This document shows, in pieces, positions 22,340 through 28,852 of a stretch of 64,000 bases of DNA. Source of the DNA: Leifsonia williamsii. GTDB taxonomy: Bacteria; Actinomycetota; Actinomycetes; Actinomycetales; Microbacteriaceae. A program made the translations under genes and the position numbers. Where the stretch lies: assembly GCF_030433685.1 (NCBI RefSeq), contig NZ_JAROCF010000001.1, forward strand, positions 2,480,001 to 2,544,000, read 5' to 3'. Position 1 is the first letter of the stretch. Every line of letters begins with the position of its first letter. Under the pieces are notes generated by a model. The model worked only from the letters and a program-made list of their open reading frames with translations. It had not been told where the DNA came from and made no database searches.

Positions 22340-22786
22340 TCAGGGGACGAGGTCGTAGGTCACCCACTTGGTCTTCTCGGCGACCGCGTCGTAGAGCCGC
22401 CGGGCTGTCTCGTTGTCCTTGGCGGTGATCCACCGGACGACCGTGAGGCCGCGCTCCTTCGCCGTCTCCTTCAGCTGCGTGAGGAGGGCCGTGCCGGCCC
22501 CCGCCCCGCGCGCGTCGGGCGTCACGAAGAGGTCGTCGAGGTACAGGCCCTTGCTGCCGTCGAGCGGCCGGACGAACTCCCGCACGTGGGCCAGCCCGAT
22601 CGGGGTGCCCTCCTCATCGACGGCGAAGTAGGCCTCCAGCTCGTTCTCCGGGTCGGAGATCCAGCTCCAGACCAGCAGCGCCTTCTCGTCGGTGACCGGC
22701 TGCTCGTAGAACTCGCCGTACCCCGCGTAGAGGTCGAGCCAGGTGAAGAACTCGTTGTCCTCCACACGCCTGACCGTAGCCGTCAT
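22340..22786 (-). CDS. GNAT-family N-acetyltransferase (copy 2)
   Basis: 148 residues. Same architecture as the neighbouring copy: EFFTWLDLYAGYGEFYEQ, LLVWSWISD, GLAHVREFVRPL, YLDDLFVTPDARGAGAGTAL, and RWITAKDNETARRLYD. The acetyl-CoA loop is RGAGAG. Start ATG 22786 with AGGAGG and a 4-bp ATGA overlap with the valS stop, so it is read from the valS transcript. The tandem pair most likely arose by duplication. Substrate unknown. Confidence 0.88.
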   Translation of the reverse strand: MTATVRRVEDNEFFTWLDLYAGYGEFYEQPVTDEKALLVWSWISDPENELEAYFAVDEEGTPIGLAHVREFVRPLDGSKGLYLDDLFVTPDARGAGAGTALLTQLKETAKERGLTVVRWITAKDNETARRLYDAVAEKTKWVTYDLVP

Positions 22787-25395
22787 CGTTCCTCCTCGCT
22801 CGGGGCCTGAGCAAGCAGAATATCGGTCACGGTCAGCTCGTCGGCGGAGGCGAACCGCAGTTCCGCGATTCTGCCGACCGAGCGGAGGTCGCCGGCGGCC
22901 GCCTCGACGGCCGCGATCTCGTCGGCGGGGCCGGAGATCACGGCGGAGTCGACGGGCGTGCGCTGCGAGGCCTTCGCGGCGGTCTTCGCTCCGCGAACAC
23001 CGGTGAGGGCGCGACCGACGGTCGCAAGGACCTTCCGCGTGTCGGGCCAGTCGGCGGAGGCCGTCTCGGCGGCCTGCGGCCAGTCGGCGACGTGCACGGA
23101 GCCCTCCTCGAACCAGCTCCACGCCTCCTCGGTGGCGAAGGGCAGCACGGGGGCGAACAGCCGGAGGAACGCGGACAGCGCGACCCGGAGGGCCACGACC
23201 GCGGAGGCCTGCTCCGGAGTGGCCTCGCCGTACGCGCGCTCCTTCACGAGCTCGAGGTAGTCGTCGCAGAACGTCCAGAAGAACGTCTCCGCGACCTCCA
23301 GCGCCCGGGCGTGGTCGTAGTTCTCGAGCGCGGCCGTGGCGTCGGCGATCACCTCGGCCAGGTTCTGCAGCATGCTGCGGTCGAGTGGCGCGGTGACGAG
23401 CGCCAGGTCGAGCGCGGCGGGCGCCTCGAAGCCGAGGATGAACTTCGCCGCGTTGAGGACCTTGATCGCCAGGCGGCGGCCGATCTTGATCTGCGTCGGG
23501 TTCTGCGGGTCGAAGGCCGCGTCGGTGCCGAGCCGCGAGGAGGCCGCCCAGTAGCGCACGGCGTCCGAGCCGTGCTTCTCGAGGATGTCGGCGGGCGTGA
23601 CGACGTTGCCCTTCGACTTCGACATCTTCTTGCGGTCGGGGTCGACGATGAAGCCGGAGATGGCGGCGTTGCGCCACGGCGCGACATCGCTCTCGAGCTT
23701 CGAGCGGAGGAGCGTCGAGAACAGCCAGGTGCGGATGATGTCCTGCCCCTGCGGCCGCAGGTCGAACGGGAACACCGCGCCGAACAGCTCGTCGTCGCGC
23801 TGCCAGCCGCCGGCCAGTTGCGGGGTGAGCGAGGAGGTCATCCAGGTGTCCATCACGTCGTGCTCGCCGACGAAGCCGCCGGCGTGACCGCGCTGCGCCT
23901 CGTCGAAGCCCGGCGCGGTGTCGGAGGACGGGTCGACCGGGAGCATCCCCTCGGTCGGCAGGATCGGCTGGTCGAAGACCGGGTTGCCGTCGCCGTCGAG
24001 CGGGTACCAGACCGGGATCGGCACGCCGAAGAAGCGCTGGCGCGAGATCAGCCAGTCGCCGGTGAGGCCGCCGACCCAGTTCTCGTACCGCACGCGCATG
24101 AAGTCGGGGTGCCAGCCCAGCTCGCGGCCGAGCTCGATCAGGCGGGCGCGGAGCGCCTCGTCGCGGGCGCCGTTCTTGACGTACCACTGCCGGGTCGAGA
24201 CGATCTCGAGCGGCTTGTCGCCCTTCTCGAAGAACTTGACCGGGTGCTGGATGGGCTTGGGGTCGCCGATGAGGTCGCCGGAGGCGCGCAGCAGTTCCAC
24301 CACGGCCTGCTTGGCCGAGAACACCGTCTTGCCGGCGAGCTGCGCGTACGCCTCGCGTCCCTCGGCCGACTCGATGGCCGACGGAGGCTCGCTGAGGATG
24401 CGGCCGTCGAAGCCGATGATCGCGCGGTTCGGGAGGTCGAGCTCGCGCCACCAGGTGACGTCGGTGATGTCGCCGAAGGTGCAGATCATCGCGATGCCGG
24501 TGCCCTTGTCGGGCTGGGCGAGATGGTGGGCCACGACCGGCACCTCCACGCCGAAGACGGGCGTGCGGACGGTCTGGCCGAACAGCCCCTGGTAGCGCTC
24601 GTCGTCCGGGTGCGCGACCAGGGCGACGCACGCGGGCAGCAGCTCCGGGCGGGTGGTCTCGATGTACACCGGGCCGTCGGCGCCGTGGAAGGCGACGCGG
24701 TGGTAGGCGCTCGGCTGCTCGCGGTCCTCGAGCTCGGCCTGGGCGACCGCGGTGCGGAAGGTGATGTCCCACAGGGTCGGCGCCTGCGCCTGGTACGCCT
24801 CGCCGCGCTCGATGTTGCGCAGGAACGCCAGCTGGGAGGTGCGGATGGAGTCCTGCCCGATGGTCCGGTAGGTCTGCGACCAGTCGACCGAGAGGCCGAG
24901 GCTGCGCCAGAGCGCCTCGAACTGCTTCTCGTCCTCCTCGGTGAGCCGCTCGCACAGCTCGATGAAGTTGCGGCGCGAGATCGGCTTCTGGTCGGCCGCC
25001 TTGGTGCTCTTGTTGTCGCCGCCCTCGAACGGAGGCACGAAGTCGGGCTCGTACGGCAGCGACGGGTCGCAGCGCACGCCGTAGTAGTTCTGCACGCGGC
25101 GCTCGGTCGGGAGGCCGTTGTCGTCCCAACCCATCGGGTAGAACACGTGCTCGCCGCGCATGCGGTGGAACCGCGCGACGACGTCGGTGTGCGTGTAGCT
25201 GAAGACGTGGCCGATGTGCAGCGATCCGGAGGCCGTGGGCGGGGGAGTGTCGATGGAGTAGACCCCGTCGCGGCCGGCGGCGAGGGCGCCGTCGCGGTCG
25301 AAGCGGAAGGTGCCGTCGGCCTGCCAGTGGTCGCCCCACTTGGCTTCCAGTCCTTCGAGGGCGGGCTTGTCGGGCACGGGGCCGAAGGCGCTCAT
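22783..25395 (-). CDS. valS: Valyl-tRNA synthetase, archaeal-like type
   Basis: 870 residues. Class I synthetase charging tRNA-Val. HIGH motif in TPPPTASGSLHIGHVFSYT, KMSKS motif in RKKMSKSKGNVVTPADIL, editing domain with TTRPELLPACVALVAHP. The HIGH-region wording and the lack of a C-terminal coiled-coil arm are features of the archaeal/rickettsial-type ValRS rather than the E. coli type (951 aa). CGGAGAA precedes the ATG. Its promoter lies at about 25460. The GNAT pair follows in the same transcript. No T-box was found in the 65-nt leader. Confidence 0.95.
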   Translation of the reverse strand: MSAFGPVPDKPALEGLEAKWGDHWQADGTFRFDRDGALAAGRDGVYSIDTPPPTASGSLHIGHVFSYTHTDVVARFHRMRGEHVFYPMGWDDNGLPTERRVQNYYGVRCDPSLPYEPDFVPPFEGGDNKSTKAADQKPISRRNFIELCERLTEEDEKQFEALWRSLGLSVDWSQTYRTIGQDSIRTSQLAFLRNIERGEAYQAQAPTLWDITFRTAVAQAELEDREQPSAYHRVAFHGADGPVYIETTRPELLPACVALVAHPDDERYQGLFGQTVRTPVFGVEVPVVAHHLAQPDKGTGIAMICTFGDITDVTWWRELDLPNRAIIGFDGRILSEPPSAIESAEGREAYAQLAGKTVFSAKQAVVELLRASGDLIGDPKPIQHPVKFFEKGDKPLEIVSTRQWYVKNGARDEALRARLIELGRELGWHPDFMRVRYENWVGGLTGDWLISRQRFFGVPIPVWYPLDGDGNPVFDQPILPTEGMLPVDPSSDTAPGFDEAQRGHAGGFVGEHDVMDTWMTSSLTPQLAGGWQRDDELFGAVFPFDLRPQGQDIIRTWLFSTLLRSKLESDVAPWRNAAISGFIVDPDRKKMSKSKGNVVTPADILEKHGSDAVRYWAASSRLGTDAAFDPQNPTQIKIGRRLAIKVLNAAKFILGFEAPAALDLALVTAPLDRSMLQNLAEVIADATAALENYDHARALEVAETFFWTFCDDYLELVKERAYGEATPEQASAVVALRVALSAFLRLFAPVLPFATEEAWSWFEEGSVHVADWPQAAETASADWPDTRKVLATVGRALTGVRGAKTAAKASQRTPVDSAVISGPADEIAAVEAAAGDLRSVGRIAELRFASADELTVTDILLAQAPSEEER

Positions 25396-25458
25396 GGTTC
25401 TCCGATCGATATGTGCGGCACCGTGTCCTCGAGGTGCCTGAGTATGGGGATCCCTCCC

Positions 25459-25464
25459 AGGCTA
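25459..25464 (-). promoter_or_regulatory. Putative -10 box of valS (TAGCCT)
   Basis: Minus-strand TAGCCT 64 bp before the ATG. The leader contains a small GGCACC/GGTGCC hairpin (25407-25432). Confidence 0.45.
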
Positions 25465-25481
25465 CCCGAGAGCACGGTGCC

Positions 25482-25546
25482 GCCGCCGATCAGACCTCGT
25501 CGACGATGGGCGCCCTCCTCGCCGCGACGAGCGACGCGACGAGGGT
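25482..25546 (-). pseudogene. Orphan copy of the MHS-transporter gene 3' end (direct repeat A)
   Basis: The 56 bp at 25482-25537 match 27525-27580 (the end of the MHS transporter gene plus 8 bp) with one difference at 25508. That change is synonymous (Pro CCC against CCG). The encoded tail ASLVAARRAPIVDEV and the stop are identical. The three codons before it still match in protein (TLV) but differ at third positions; beyond about 25546 similarity stops. No gene is left here. It forms one border of the ATPase/DUF4276 cassette. Confidence 0.8.
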
Positions 25547-25561
25547 GGCTCGTGGGCCCAC

Positions 25562-26143
25562 CTATGTTGAAATCAGTTGTCCGATCGCATCCACGAGCCG
25601 AGCGAAAGACCGGGACCGCTTCGTGGCGGTGTCCACGTCGATGAGAGATGCGTAGCGTTTTTGGTCGACTGACTCCGAGTAGACCCCATTGATCAGAAGC
25701 GACGCAAAGTGGTTTTTGGGGCCTTTGAGAAGTTCAGGATTTGTCTGGAACTGTGCGTCTGGCTTGACCGCCTCGCGTCCCGCCATGGTGTCGATCGACG
25801 CCAGGAACCAAGCTTCGAACTCCCGAACCGCGGGAGCGACGAGCACCCGGCGATGGGACACGCACTCGGATGCTCGCGCCTCAAGGTCGCTGGCAAGTTG
25901 CTCGGGGTCGTCGTCGTCGCTGTCGAGGACCACCAGCACGGATTCATGTGCGACAGAGACGAGCTGAAGCGCCCGTTCATAATCACTGAATCTAGGCGAG
26001 AACCTCCCGCGCTTGACTCTCATCGGTGAGTGTTGCGGAACAATGTCGAACCTTCCGTACGCCTCGCGCGCGACTCTGGCGACCAGCGACGGCATTGCCA
26101 GGACTTCGCCGTGGCCCTCCACGATCAATCCCAACGAATTCAA
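25562..26143 (-). CDS. DUF4276-family protein, TOPRIM-like putative nuclease partner
   Basis: 193 residues. Matches the DUF4276 pattern. An N-terminal strand ends in an acidic motif, LIVEGHGE, and is followed about 65 residues later by VLVVLDSDDDD; Glu plus DxD is the layout of TOPRIM metal sites in OLD-family and related nucleases. A conserved-looking APAVREFEAWFLAS follows. The start is TTG 26143, fixed by a 4-bp TTGA overlap with the ATPase stop. DUF4276 genes commonly pair with AAA ATPases in defence islands (family knowledge). Nuclease activity is inferred, not shown. Composition is clearly less GC-rich than the flanks. Confidence 0.78.
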   Translation of the reverse strand: MNSLGLIVEGHGEVLAMPSLVARVAREAYGRFDIVPQHSPMRVKRGRFSPRFSDYERALQLVSVAHESVLVVLDSDDDDPEQLASDLEARASECVSHRRVLVAPAVREFEAWFLASIDTMAGREAVKPDAQFQTNPELLKGPKNHFASLLINGVYSESVDQKRYASLIDVDTATKRSRSFARLVDAIGQLIST

Positions 26144-27384
26144 AACAGGCTCGCTGGCTTCTGAGTTGTCTTGGCGAACACATCCGGCTTGACTTGTTCC
26201 AGGCGGAGGAGCTCGCCGACTGTATAGAGGTTCTCTTTTGCTGCCATACGGGTCGCTGGATCGACTTGGCCGATCGTTGTCTTTCCTCGGTCCGACTGAA
26301 CTGCCAGGACGGAATCGACGTCGATGCTTGGGTGGTCGAGAAGATCGGGACTGTGCGTGGTGAGAAGAAGCTGGTGCTTCTTCGACCGCTCCAGGAGGGC
26401 GTCCATAAGGCGGTGAGCCGCTCCGGGATGAACAGCGGTCTCTGGTTCCTCAATGCTCACGAGAGGGGTGTTCTCCTGGAAGGCCGCCACCAGAACGCAT
26501 AGGGCGCGCAACGTGCCGTCAGACACGTTCGAAGCCAAGAAGCTCCATGCGCGCTGATCGCCCACCACGTCCTGCTTGAATTCGACAGTCTCCTTCGGGC
26601 CGAAGGACCGAGGTGCGATCGAACGAATTCCCGGCACAACTGCTCCTAGGTACTCCGTGACGCGATCGAGCGATCGCGGAGACATCTCCCTCAGACGACG
26701 GATCACGGACGCCAGGTTGCTGCCATCCTCAGTGAGGATCTCTCCCATGTCGGGGCTCTGCAGATCTCGCACATGGTTCGGGTTGAAATTGTAGAAGCCG
26801 AAGTCTCGTAGCCCGACAGCTACCTCTTCGTATTCGGTAAGTCCACCGATTACGGAGAGGGCCAAAGAATTGCGCGCGACTCGGACGGTCGCCAAGCTGG
26901 GGCCGGTGGAACTGATGACACCGTCCACCGATTGGAAGGATGCGACCAATTCTTCGCGGCGGTAAACGCGGCAGACTTCTTTTTGAACCTCGAACGTGAA
27001 GTCCTTTTTCGCAGACACTTGATAGGCGTACTCGGCGTGTCCGCTCGGTGTGTCAATGTCGTACCGCACCCCGAAATGCGTTGGGTGGCCCGTACTACGT
27101 CGGCGAACGTCAACGATTCCGCCTCGATCGCGAATTGCATTCTCGAGGTTTGTCTGCAGCGCGTCCCGAGTGAGTCTGATCCCGTCAATGAAGTTGCTCT
27201 TGCCGGATCCGTTCGGGCCCACCAGGAGGGTCAGCCGGCTGAGTGGTACATCGCAAGCTTCGATGCTCTTGAAGTTCTTGAGAACCACACGGCGAATCGT
27301 CGGGCTCGGCCACACGCTCCCGGGAATAGGCATTTTGGCGTCCGCCAGCCCTTCTATTCCGTCATGCAAGGTCTCCAATGGCAT
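26140..27384 (-). CDS. AAA-family ATPase (AAA_15/AAA_21, OLD/SMC-like), putative anti-phage module
   Basis: 414 residues from ATG 27384 (an in-frame TTG at 27420 would add 12). ABC/SMC-type ATPase: IRRVVLKNFKSIEACDVPLS, Walker A GPNGSGKSNF, signature-like SDGTLRAL, Walker B LVSIEEPETAVHP, and the switch His in LLTTHSPDLLDH. This is the split form of the OLD/PARIS/AbiL logic: an ATPase gene followed by a small TOPRIM-like gene, coupled by TTGA. TAACAT lies 8 nt before the ATG and may be the -10. The gene is AT-richer than the rest of the window and sits between two copies of a transporter 3' end, so it was probably acquired. Confidence 0.85.
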   Translation of the reverse strand: MPLETLHDGIEGLADAKMPIPGSVWPSPTIRRVVLKNFKSIEACDVPLSRLTLLVGPNGSGKSNFIDGIRLTRDALQTNLENAIRDRGGIVDVRRRSTGHPTHFGVRYDIDTPSGHAEYAYQVSAKKDFTFEVQKEVCRVYRREELVASFQSVDGVISSTGPSLATVRVARNSLALSVIGGLTEYEEVAVGLRDFGFYNFNPNHVRDLQSPDMGEILTEDGSNLASVIRRLREMSPRSLDRVTEYLGAVVPGIRSIAPRSFGPKETVEFKQDVVGDQRAWSFLASNVSDGTLRALCVLVAAFQENTPLVSIEEPETAVHPGAAHRLMDALLERSKKHQLLLTTHSPDLLDHPSIDVDSVLAVQSDRGKTTIGQVDPATRMAAKENLYTVGELLRLEQVKPDVFAKTTQKPASLF

Positions 27385-27524
27385 GACACCGAATGTTACA
27401 TATCGAAGATCGAATTGCAAGAGCTCTCGTTCTCGCCACCCGTCAGGCGTGATCCTAACTGTTGATCGCCGTCTTTCGGACTCGGTGTACCCGACGTCAC
27501 GGTGCCACCGCCGATCGGCCGCGT

Positions 27525-27580
27525 GCCGCCGATCAGACCTCGTCGACGATCGGCGCCCTCCTCGCCGCGACGAGCGACGC
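27525..27580 (-). repeat. Direct repeat B, 3' end of MHS transporter gene
   Basis: 56-bp copy matching 25482-25537 (55/56). Covers the last 15-16 codons of the intact transporter gene, its TGA and 8 bp beyond. With repeat A it brackets the cassette (about 2.0 kb from repeat to repeat). Just beyond it (27497-27524) the sequence TGCC(A/G)CCGCCGATC is itself partly duplicated. Confidence 0.85.
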
Positions 27581-28852
27581 CACCAGCGTGATCGCCGACA
27601 TGATCGCGAGCACGATGCCCGGGTGCCACCAGGCGTTCCCGGTCGCCTGGCCGAACACCAGCGTCAGGGCGGGGACGAAGGAGGTCAGCAGCGCCGCGAT
27701 GCTGTACGCCACCGAGAGTCCGCTGTATCGCACCTCGCTCGGGAACAGGTCGGACATCATGCCGCCGAGCCCGGCCCACGAGAGCGTGGGCAGGATCCCG
27801 CCGATGATCATGCTCGCGACCAGGATGCCGAAGGAGGCGTACTGCAGCAGGAAGTACATCGGGAACGCGACGATCAGCGTGCCGATCGCGCCGATGGCGA
27901 CGACCCTCGCCGACCCGATCTTCACCGCCCAGAGCCCGAACAGCGGGATGGTCACGAGCTGCAGCAGGCCGCCGATCGTCGTGGCGACGAGGAGGTCCTG
28001 GTACTGGAAGCCGAGCACGGCCGTCCCGTAGTCCACCATGTACGTGTTCATCAGCGAGTACGAGCCGATGCCGAGCACAGCGGCGCCGATGCCGATGACG
28101 AAGCCGGAGGGCGCCTTCCGGAAGACGTCGAGCACCGGGAACCGGTCGCGAGTGCCGGTCTCGACCAGGCGGCGGAACACCGGCGTCTCGTCGATCGACC
28201 AGCGCAGGTAGAGCGAGACGAGCAGCAGCGGGAACGCGGTCAGGAACGGGATGCGCCAGCCCCATGCGGCGATGTCCTCGGTCGACAGGGTCAGCGTGAG
28301 CACGATGAAGACGACGGCGCTGAGGATGGAGCCGACCGGCGAGCCGAGCTGGGGCAGCGCCGCGTAGAACCCGCGCCGCTTGGGGTTCGAGTACTCCGTG
28401 GCGAGCGCGATCGCGCCTCCCCACTCCCCGCCGACCGACGCGCCCTGCACGAGCCGCAGCAGCACGATGGCGATGCCGCCGAACCAGCCCGCGGCGGCAT
28501 ACGTCGGCAGCACGCCGACGAGGCCTGTGGAGATCCCCATGAGGAGGATCGTGATCAGCAGCGTCGGCCGCCGGCCGATCCGGTCGCCGAGGTTGCCGAA
28601 GATGATCGCGCCCACCGGGCGGATGACGAAGCCGGCTGCGATGGCCAGGAAGCCGGCGAGCACGCCGCCGAAGGTGCCGAGCGGCGCGAAGAACAGCGGG
28701 CCGACGAAGAACGCGGCGAAGTACGCGTACAGGTAGAAGTCGTACGACTCGAGCGCGGTGCCGACGAACGAGGCGACGGTCACGCGGCGGGCGGTGCCCG
28801 GGGTGATGCCCGGCCGGTCGGTCTCGACGGCGGGCGCTGCTGTGGAGGTCAC
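27533..28852 (-). CDS. MFS transporter, metabolite:H+ symporter (MHS) family
   Basis: 439 residues, twelve membrane segments. ShiA/ProP-type MHS member, importing organic acids, shikimate, betaine or similar with protons. Signatures: FVGTALESYDFYLYAYF in helix 1, IRPVGAIIFGNLGDRIGRR in the 2-3 loop, and RLVQGASVGGEWGGA in helix 4. GTG start with GAAGGA upstream. Divergent from a TetR regulator with a shared dyad between them, so the regulator probably controls it. Its 3' end is duplicated on the far side of the ATPase/DUF4276 cassette. Confidence 0.92.
   Translation of the reverse strand: MTSTAAPAVETDRPGITPGTARRVTVASFVGTALESYDFYLYAYFAAFFVGPLFFAPLGTFGGVLAGFLAIAAGFVIRPVGAIIFGNLGDRIGRRPTLLITILLMGISTGLVGVLPTYAAAGWFGGIAIVLLRLVQGASVGGEWGGAIALATEYSNPKRRGFYAALPQLGSPVGSILSAVVFIVLTLTLSTEDIAAWGWRIPFLTAFPLLLVSLYLRWSIDETPVFRRLVETGTRDRFPVLDVFRKAPSGFVIGIGAAVLGIGSYSLMNTYMVDYGTAVLGFQYQDLLVATTIGGLLQLVTIPLFGLWAVKIGSARVVAIGAIGTLIVAFPMYFLLQYASFGILVASMIIGGILPTLSWAGLGGMMSDLFPSEVRYSGLSVAYSIAALLTSFVPALTLVFGQATGNAWWHPGIVLAIMSAITLVASLVAARRAPIVDEV

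Follow-up and report, generated by a model that had tools for sequence, protein, structure and literature searches.

The window that we analysed is the whole of a 64,000-nucleotide stretch of Leifsonia williamsii DNA (contig NZ_JAROCF010000001.1, positions 2,480,001 to 2,544,000). Between a transporter gene and valS it holds a two-gene cassette that is bracketed by two copies of the transporter gene end. The features, in window coordinates, are as follows:

22783..25395, minus strand: valS, the downstream neighbour, with its leader retained beside copy A
25463..25547 (core 25482-25547), minus strand: copy A, a displaced, diverged copy of the MHS gene end, followed by the native valS promoter and leader
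25548..25561, minus strand: 14-bp spacer from the DUF4276 stop codon to copy A, with the palindrome GTGGGCCCAC at 25552-25561; candidate inner arm
25562..26143, minus strand: HEC-01B DUF4276 protein, TOPRIM-like, with a TTG start at 26143
26140..27384, minus strand: HEC-01A-type ABC/AAA_21 ATPase with an OLD/Gaj/PtuA-like head
27488..27590 (core 27525-27590; extension beyond the core by eye), minus strand: copy B, the attached MHS 3' end with its stop codon and downstream bases
27533..28852, minus strand: MHS/MFS transporter gene, the putative insertion target, with an intact open reading frame

The two gene-end copies (25482-25547 and 27525-27590) are direct repeats that are 94% identical over 66 bp. 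They contain the 56-bp pair reported in the initial annotation (25482-25537 and 27525-27580), which we confirmed to be identical at 55 of 56 positions. When 3.1 kb around the cassette was compared with itself by blastn, this pair scored E=6e-25, the next-best direct match being at E=0.12. Past the stop codon the homology can be followed by eye, with an 18-bp indel, toward the likely -10 region of valS. Copy B is continuous in reading frame with the MHS gene, and copy A stands detached upstream of valS. An 85-bp gene-end query had two real places in the whole genome; two weaker matches (78-79%) sit within unrelated genes and were rejected as further copies. The 1.98 kb between the copies consists of the ATPase and DUF4276 open reading frames, the stop codon of the first sharing 4 nt with the start of the second, as in a translationally coupled operon. 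Neither a recombinase nor a transfer gene was found there by Pfam; the region between the repeats thus has, as in a CIME, no integrase, relaxase or transfer gene, and the earlier remark that an integrase is absent holds. A promoter scan of the cassette revealed no strong promoter of its own. On the far side of copy A, the valS leader (25396-25462) contains a block, CACTCAGGCACC...CGGTGCCGCA, that recurs, slightly altered, in the 26 relatives in which the interval was read. The block has a short dyad by eye and may be a regulatory leader; it had no match among known RNA families in Rfam.

The cassette is apparently foreign. Its GC content per 500-bp window is 57-61%, as against about 70% in the surroundings, and the GC3 values of its genes are 0.68 and 0.70, as against 0.97 for both MHS and valS, in agreement with the AT-richer composition first noticed by inspection. 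The DUF4276 gene was found in one of 28 genomes of the genus, that of the window itself, and in none of the 27 related species. Because of this distribution, the arrangement is not one shared across the genus with normal codon usage, the observation that had been named as fatal to a mobile origin. A search of genome contigs with the window's ATPase alone as the query found no relative. As to enzymes that might have mobilized the cassette, the window genome has no match to the large serine recombinase profile PF07508 and has four matches to PF00589, the nearest about 108 kb from the cassette. One PF00589 (tyrosine recombinase) match lies on the small second contig of about 42 kb (G000:C2:40614-40931).

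We examined the corresponding interval in 27 relatives of the same genus. An MHS ortholog with 78-91% identity is present in 26 of them, and in 26 the distance from the MHS stop codon to valS is 76-162 bp, lengths that may be overstated by as much as about 12 bp in relatives whose valS begins a few codons earlier. These are empty sites, as the initial annotation had predicted. One of them belongs to a small-genome relative (G017, locus L034), in which the MHS ortholog is broken into two pieces. In the window the interval measures 2137 bp; subtracting one 2043-bp repeat unit leaves 94 bp, which falls within the range of the relatives. An occupied site with two copies of the gene end is therefore set against empty sites with one, the pattern by which long target duplications are recognized, the empty sites here belonging to different species within the genus. 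The further expectation that other cargo would occupy the same place was borne out in a single relative of the 27 (G019, L036 4374-6377), whose interval carries about 2.2 kb with three minus-strand open reading frames, but no flanking repeat. None of the three had a Pfam match, and their designation as WXG100/polymorphic-toxin-like is thus only a reading. No recombinase was found at the MHS-valS site in the 27 relatives.

How copies A and B differ bears on their origin. All four of their coding differences are synonymous and at third positions (ACC/ACG, CTC/CTG, GTC/GTG, and CCC/CCG), an excess with P=0.006 under neutrality for these four changes. As had been proposed from inspection, this suggests that they are two alleles of a gene end rather than a gene end and a decaying copy of it. 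The same comparison was made at three repeat pairs from other bacteria, described below. Synonymous and non-synonymous changes numbered 6.5 and 3.5 at L107 (P=0.008), 11 and 9 at L071 (P=0.003), and 0 and 1 at L067, as compared with 4 and 0 in the window. Given the synonymous excess in the window, L107 and L071, the copies in three of the four cases probably diverged as coding sequence before they came together.

The cargo belongs to a recognizable gene pair. Its ATPase and DUF4276 genes, which are adjacent as in HEC-01, have HEC-01A (E=3e-134) and HEC-01B (E=2e-50), respectively, as their best PADLOC profiles. Invariant in 21 ATPase sequences are GPNGxGKSN, EEPExAxHP, and TTHSPDLL, which we take to be the Walker A, Walker B, and H-loop motifs, and the best profile matches of the ATPase are OLD and GajA chains. 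DUF4276 has a TOPRIM-like predicted fold with conserved VEGxG...DSDDD residues; a Foldseek search with it gave no match at E<=0.001. The pair thus resembles OLD, Gabija (GajA), and PARIS in its ABC-type ATPase head and in the predicted TOPRIM-like fold and conserved residues of the partner, but differs from them in dividing the ATPase and TOPRIM-like parts between two short proteins, and DUF4276 is a family of its own. The initial suggestion of an anti-phage module survives as a candidate: from the PADLOC candidate label, the profiles, and the predicted structure, which together make up its basis, the two proteins are probably an anti-phage effector pair. In a limited literature search we came upon no reported function of HEC-01, no bracketing of it by gene ends, and no mention of DUF4276; a HEC-01 call is listed in the available part of one paper (PMC12724379).

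Are HEC-01 loci elsewhere bracketed by repeats? A profile scan of genome contigs supplied the best 80 of 491 HEC-01A loci, and in 68 of these best 80 DUF4276 adjoins the ATPase; of 52 actinobacterial stretches around DUF4276 genes, 39 had the pair and could be scored. We set aside unpaired loci, one duplicate, short loci that had been fetched twice, and loci with a flank of less than 150 bp, which left 104 loci for testing, with the window not counted. Bracketing direct repeats with a score of at least 25 were found in 6 of the 104, as compared with 4 of 628 shifted controls (Fisher P=0.0009), and 98 loci had no such repeats. Inverted repeats were found in 0 of the 104, and transposon ends of that kind were rejected. 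A tblastx version of the test gave a weaker contrast at E<=1e-8 (4 of 105 loci versus 6 of 799 controls) and none at E<=1e-3 (5 of 105 versus 40 of 799).

The loci with repeats are varied. In a Trinickia genome (L067) the end of a CopC gene is repeated with 205 of 207 bases identical. In a deltaproteobacterial MAG (L107) the repeated sequence is the end of an acyl-CoA dehydrogenase gene, and in a betaproteobacterial MAG (L071) it is a gene end that we read as type I restriction. At L183 (also L241, G1138) HEC-01 lies between divergent genes, and a 105-bp promoter region, including by eye both start codons, is present twice. The duplication is here of a promoter and start region rather than a gene 3' end, in a genome whose relatives are too distant to show which copy is native. 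L176, at the end of a symporter-like gene, is repetitive, and other windows of its stretch therefore score among its own controls; a longer stretch around it is described below as L240. The repeat at L099 is weak, with 65% identity across 226 columns, and could be due to chance or to age. At two other loci, L175 and L119, repeats lie farther out.

The symporter-end site offers an instructive parallel to the window. In one Streptomyces-like genome (L240, G1000:C1:4758000-4777500) three unrelated cassettes lie between four same-strand copies of one gene end. The target gene, on our reading, appears to encode a dicarboxylate-type symporter. Its native end comprises 170 coding bases and about 50 bp beyond; one of the four copies is shorter, and identity among the four is 79-93% across 150 nt counted from the core. 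The first cassette carries a DUF4143 ATPase, the second carries HEC-01 on the opposite strand, and the third carries a small antitoxin-like gene with a match to Arc that falls just below the cut-off; none contains an integrase. HEC-01 here runs opposite in direction to the target gene, a difference from the window.

The same gene end is the site of other insertions. In G924 (L272) a second copy follows after about 1 kb, with a Phd/ParE pair and no integrase between. The second copy follows after 11.6 kb in G871 (L273) and after 9.2 kb in G941 (L290), and in both a large serine recombinase (Resolvase and Recombinase domains) adjoins the displaced copy, the two recombinases being 65% identical to each other. 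FtsK-like and Rep-like genes were also recognized, by Pfam in L273, where the Rep protein is of the pSAM2 type, and by eye in L290. G874 has one gene-end copy and a fragment, and a single copy was found in the other 16 of 20 loci. Arrays may have been missed, because scoring took in only two matches per genome and the 16 single-copy loci were mostly read to about 5 kb on each side (some contigs being shorter).

The displaced end of G871 is native-like, with 94% identity to that of G924, whereas its attached end, at 66%, is a diverged mimic; an element that supplies the gene end would be expected to leave this pattern. The notion of an element bringing its own version of the gene end thus finds its match at this Streptomyces-like site, whereas at the window's own site no recombinase was seen. 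The integrase-less Streptomyces-like cassettes, by contrast, have a native-like attached end, with 81-90% identity to displaced copies (the displaced copy of L290 is left out of this comparison), and the two classes therefore need not share a mechanism. Meanwhile, an inner arm before the displaced end, CATACCTACA..GGTCCGG, is common in alignment to all three cassettes of G1000, that of G924, and the element of G871. In part the arm is similar to the native symporter-like gene. A pattern built from those five copies had no other match in 295 genomes, and its reversed control had no match at all; given how the pattern was made, this says no more than that the arm does not occur elsewhere. A related version of the arm is visible by eye in G941, where the pattern has no match at 3 mismatches. 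As for the candidate arm of the window, a 28-nt pattern that contains it occurs once in the 28 genomes of the genus, in the window itself.

The symporter-end site is to be regarded as analogous, and not homologous, to that of the window. Because the anatomy of the window (a transporter end, a cassette, a second diverged end, and an untouched next gene) matches that of the L240-type site, we favour, as somewhat the likelier account, the view that the cassette is an integrase-less, att-bracketed mini-element, akin to a microCIME, at the MHS 3' end with candidate defence cargo. It would have entered by recombination within shared gene-end sequence, one gene-end copy being brought by the element and the other being the host's, with the choice of the native copy one that we infer. 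Attached copy B would keep the transporter open reading frame complete, and displaced copy A would remain in front of the valS promoter. The recombinase may have acted in trans or may since have been lost. The cargo would be a two-gene OLD-like module, with the ABC-type ATPase as a predicted sensor or clamp and DUF4276 as a predicted TOPRIM-type nuclease.

A serious competitor, which we judge to be possible though not probable, is long target duplication: a circle or fragment with the operon and about 100 bp of the gene end of a related strain would integrate through a single crossover of the RecA type, without a site-specific recombinase taking part at any stage, as has been suggested for restriction-modification genes. 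We keep it because no recombinase was found at the site in 28 genomes and the arm of the window is unique. The repeats are of the same size class as in the available parts of published descriptions ("in the order of 100 bp"; PMC3874152, PMC3031569), the target differs in every case, and the native-like attached ends of the integrase-less cassettes also speak for it. It leaves unexplained, however, the arm that integrase-less cassettes at one site have in common with an element bearing a serine recombinase, the three-fold stacking in L240, and how the cargo first became associated with a gene end. An improbable alternative is that the cassette was exchanged, as part of a hotspot flanked by core genes, through the long MHS and valS flanks, the repeats having arisen by chance long ago in the donor. 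The accessible text of one study (PMC10250203) proposes that core defence hotspots recombine in their conserved flanks, and G019 holds other cargo in the same interval without repeats, but this view would not account for direct repeats bracketing HEC-01 in excess at unrelated sites. At least as improbable is that the host's own gene end was copied at insertion and the useless copy then drifted, for although L067, with 205 of 207 bases identical, looks like a recent copy, non-coding drift should not favour synonymous sites as it would have had to do in the window, L107, and L071.

Judged against this evidence, the initial interpretation is partly supported, and the mini-element that we favour has precedents. 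CIMEs, microCIMEs, and their accretion have been described (PMC7563491 and PMC5704250, as far as the available portions go). Like these decayed, cis-mobilizable derivatives of ICEs and IMEs, the window cassette is a small element between att-like repeats at a gene end with no integrase or transfer genes, and the stacking of several elements at one site in L240 recalls tandem accretion. It differs in carrying nothing more than a candidate defence operon of two genes and in having a protein-gene end as its target, and no parent element for the site was found in the 27 relatives. The ssrA genomic islands of Dehalococcoides, as the accessible part of their description has it (PMC3146451), likewise have a serine recombinase near the repeat, a conserved motif beside gene-end repeats, and integrase-less tandem islands at the same site. 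There, however, the target is a tmRNA gene, the repeat is 20 bp, and the cargo is mainly reductive dehalogenase genes, in contrast to the protein-gene end of about 60-230 bp seen here. Long target duplications of restriction-modification genes in H. pylori, in the excerpts available (PMC3874152, PMC3031569, PMC1643837), share a direct duplication of about 100 bp around a small defence operon with no transposase or integrase. Here, on the other hand, the copies resemble alleles that diverged while coding, and at one comparable site elements with a recombinase are found as well.

How chromosomal defence genes move outside integrated mobile elements is described as poorly understood in the available part of one paper (PMC12829572). 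The window appears to have caught a minimal candidate defence operon with its landing scar, and a similar scar surrounds operons of this kind in unrelated bacteria. Since one comparable site is also used by recombinase-bearing elements, trans-mobilization of bare defence cassettes is directly testable, and diverged gene-end repeats could serve as a signature for finding further cassettes. More tentatively, minimal defence cassettes of one or two genes and a host gene end, with no recombinase of their own, may be widespread and moved in trans by the recombinases of co-resident elements, a generalization that we think rather doubtful at present. If it is true, such cassettes would stack at protein-gene ends, sparing the target by supplying its end, and would roughly parallel integron cassettes, host gene ends serving as the sites of recombination.

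Finally, we note the wider distribution of the DUF4276 family. Its profile (PF14103, E<=0.001) matched 6 of 398 genomes of the window's taxonomic family, 10 of 396 of its phylum, and 44 of 392 of the Streptomyces-like genus. Carriage by plasmids and by phages was considered and rejected: no plasmid matched the ATPase at E<=1e-30, and phages had one distant DUF4276 place, with 0 of 131 pattern stretches in viral contigs. The Streptomyces-like genomes also contain a second DUF4276 group (L163-L171), which has strong Pfam matches and was not hit by the HEC-01A and HEC-01B profiles that we constructed.
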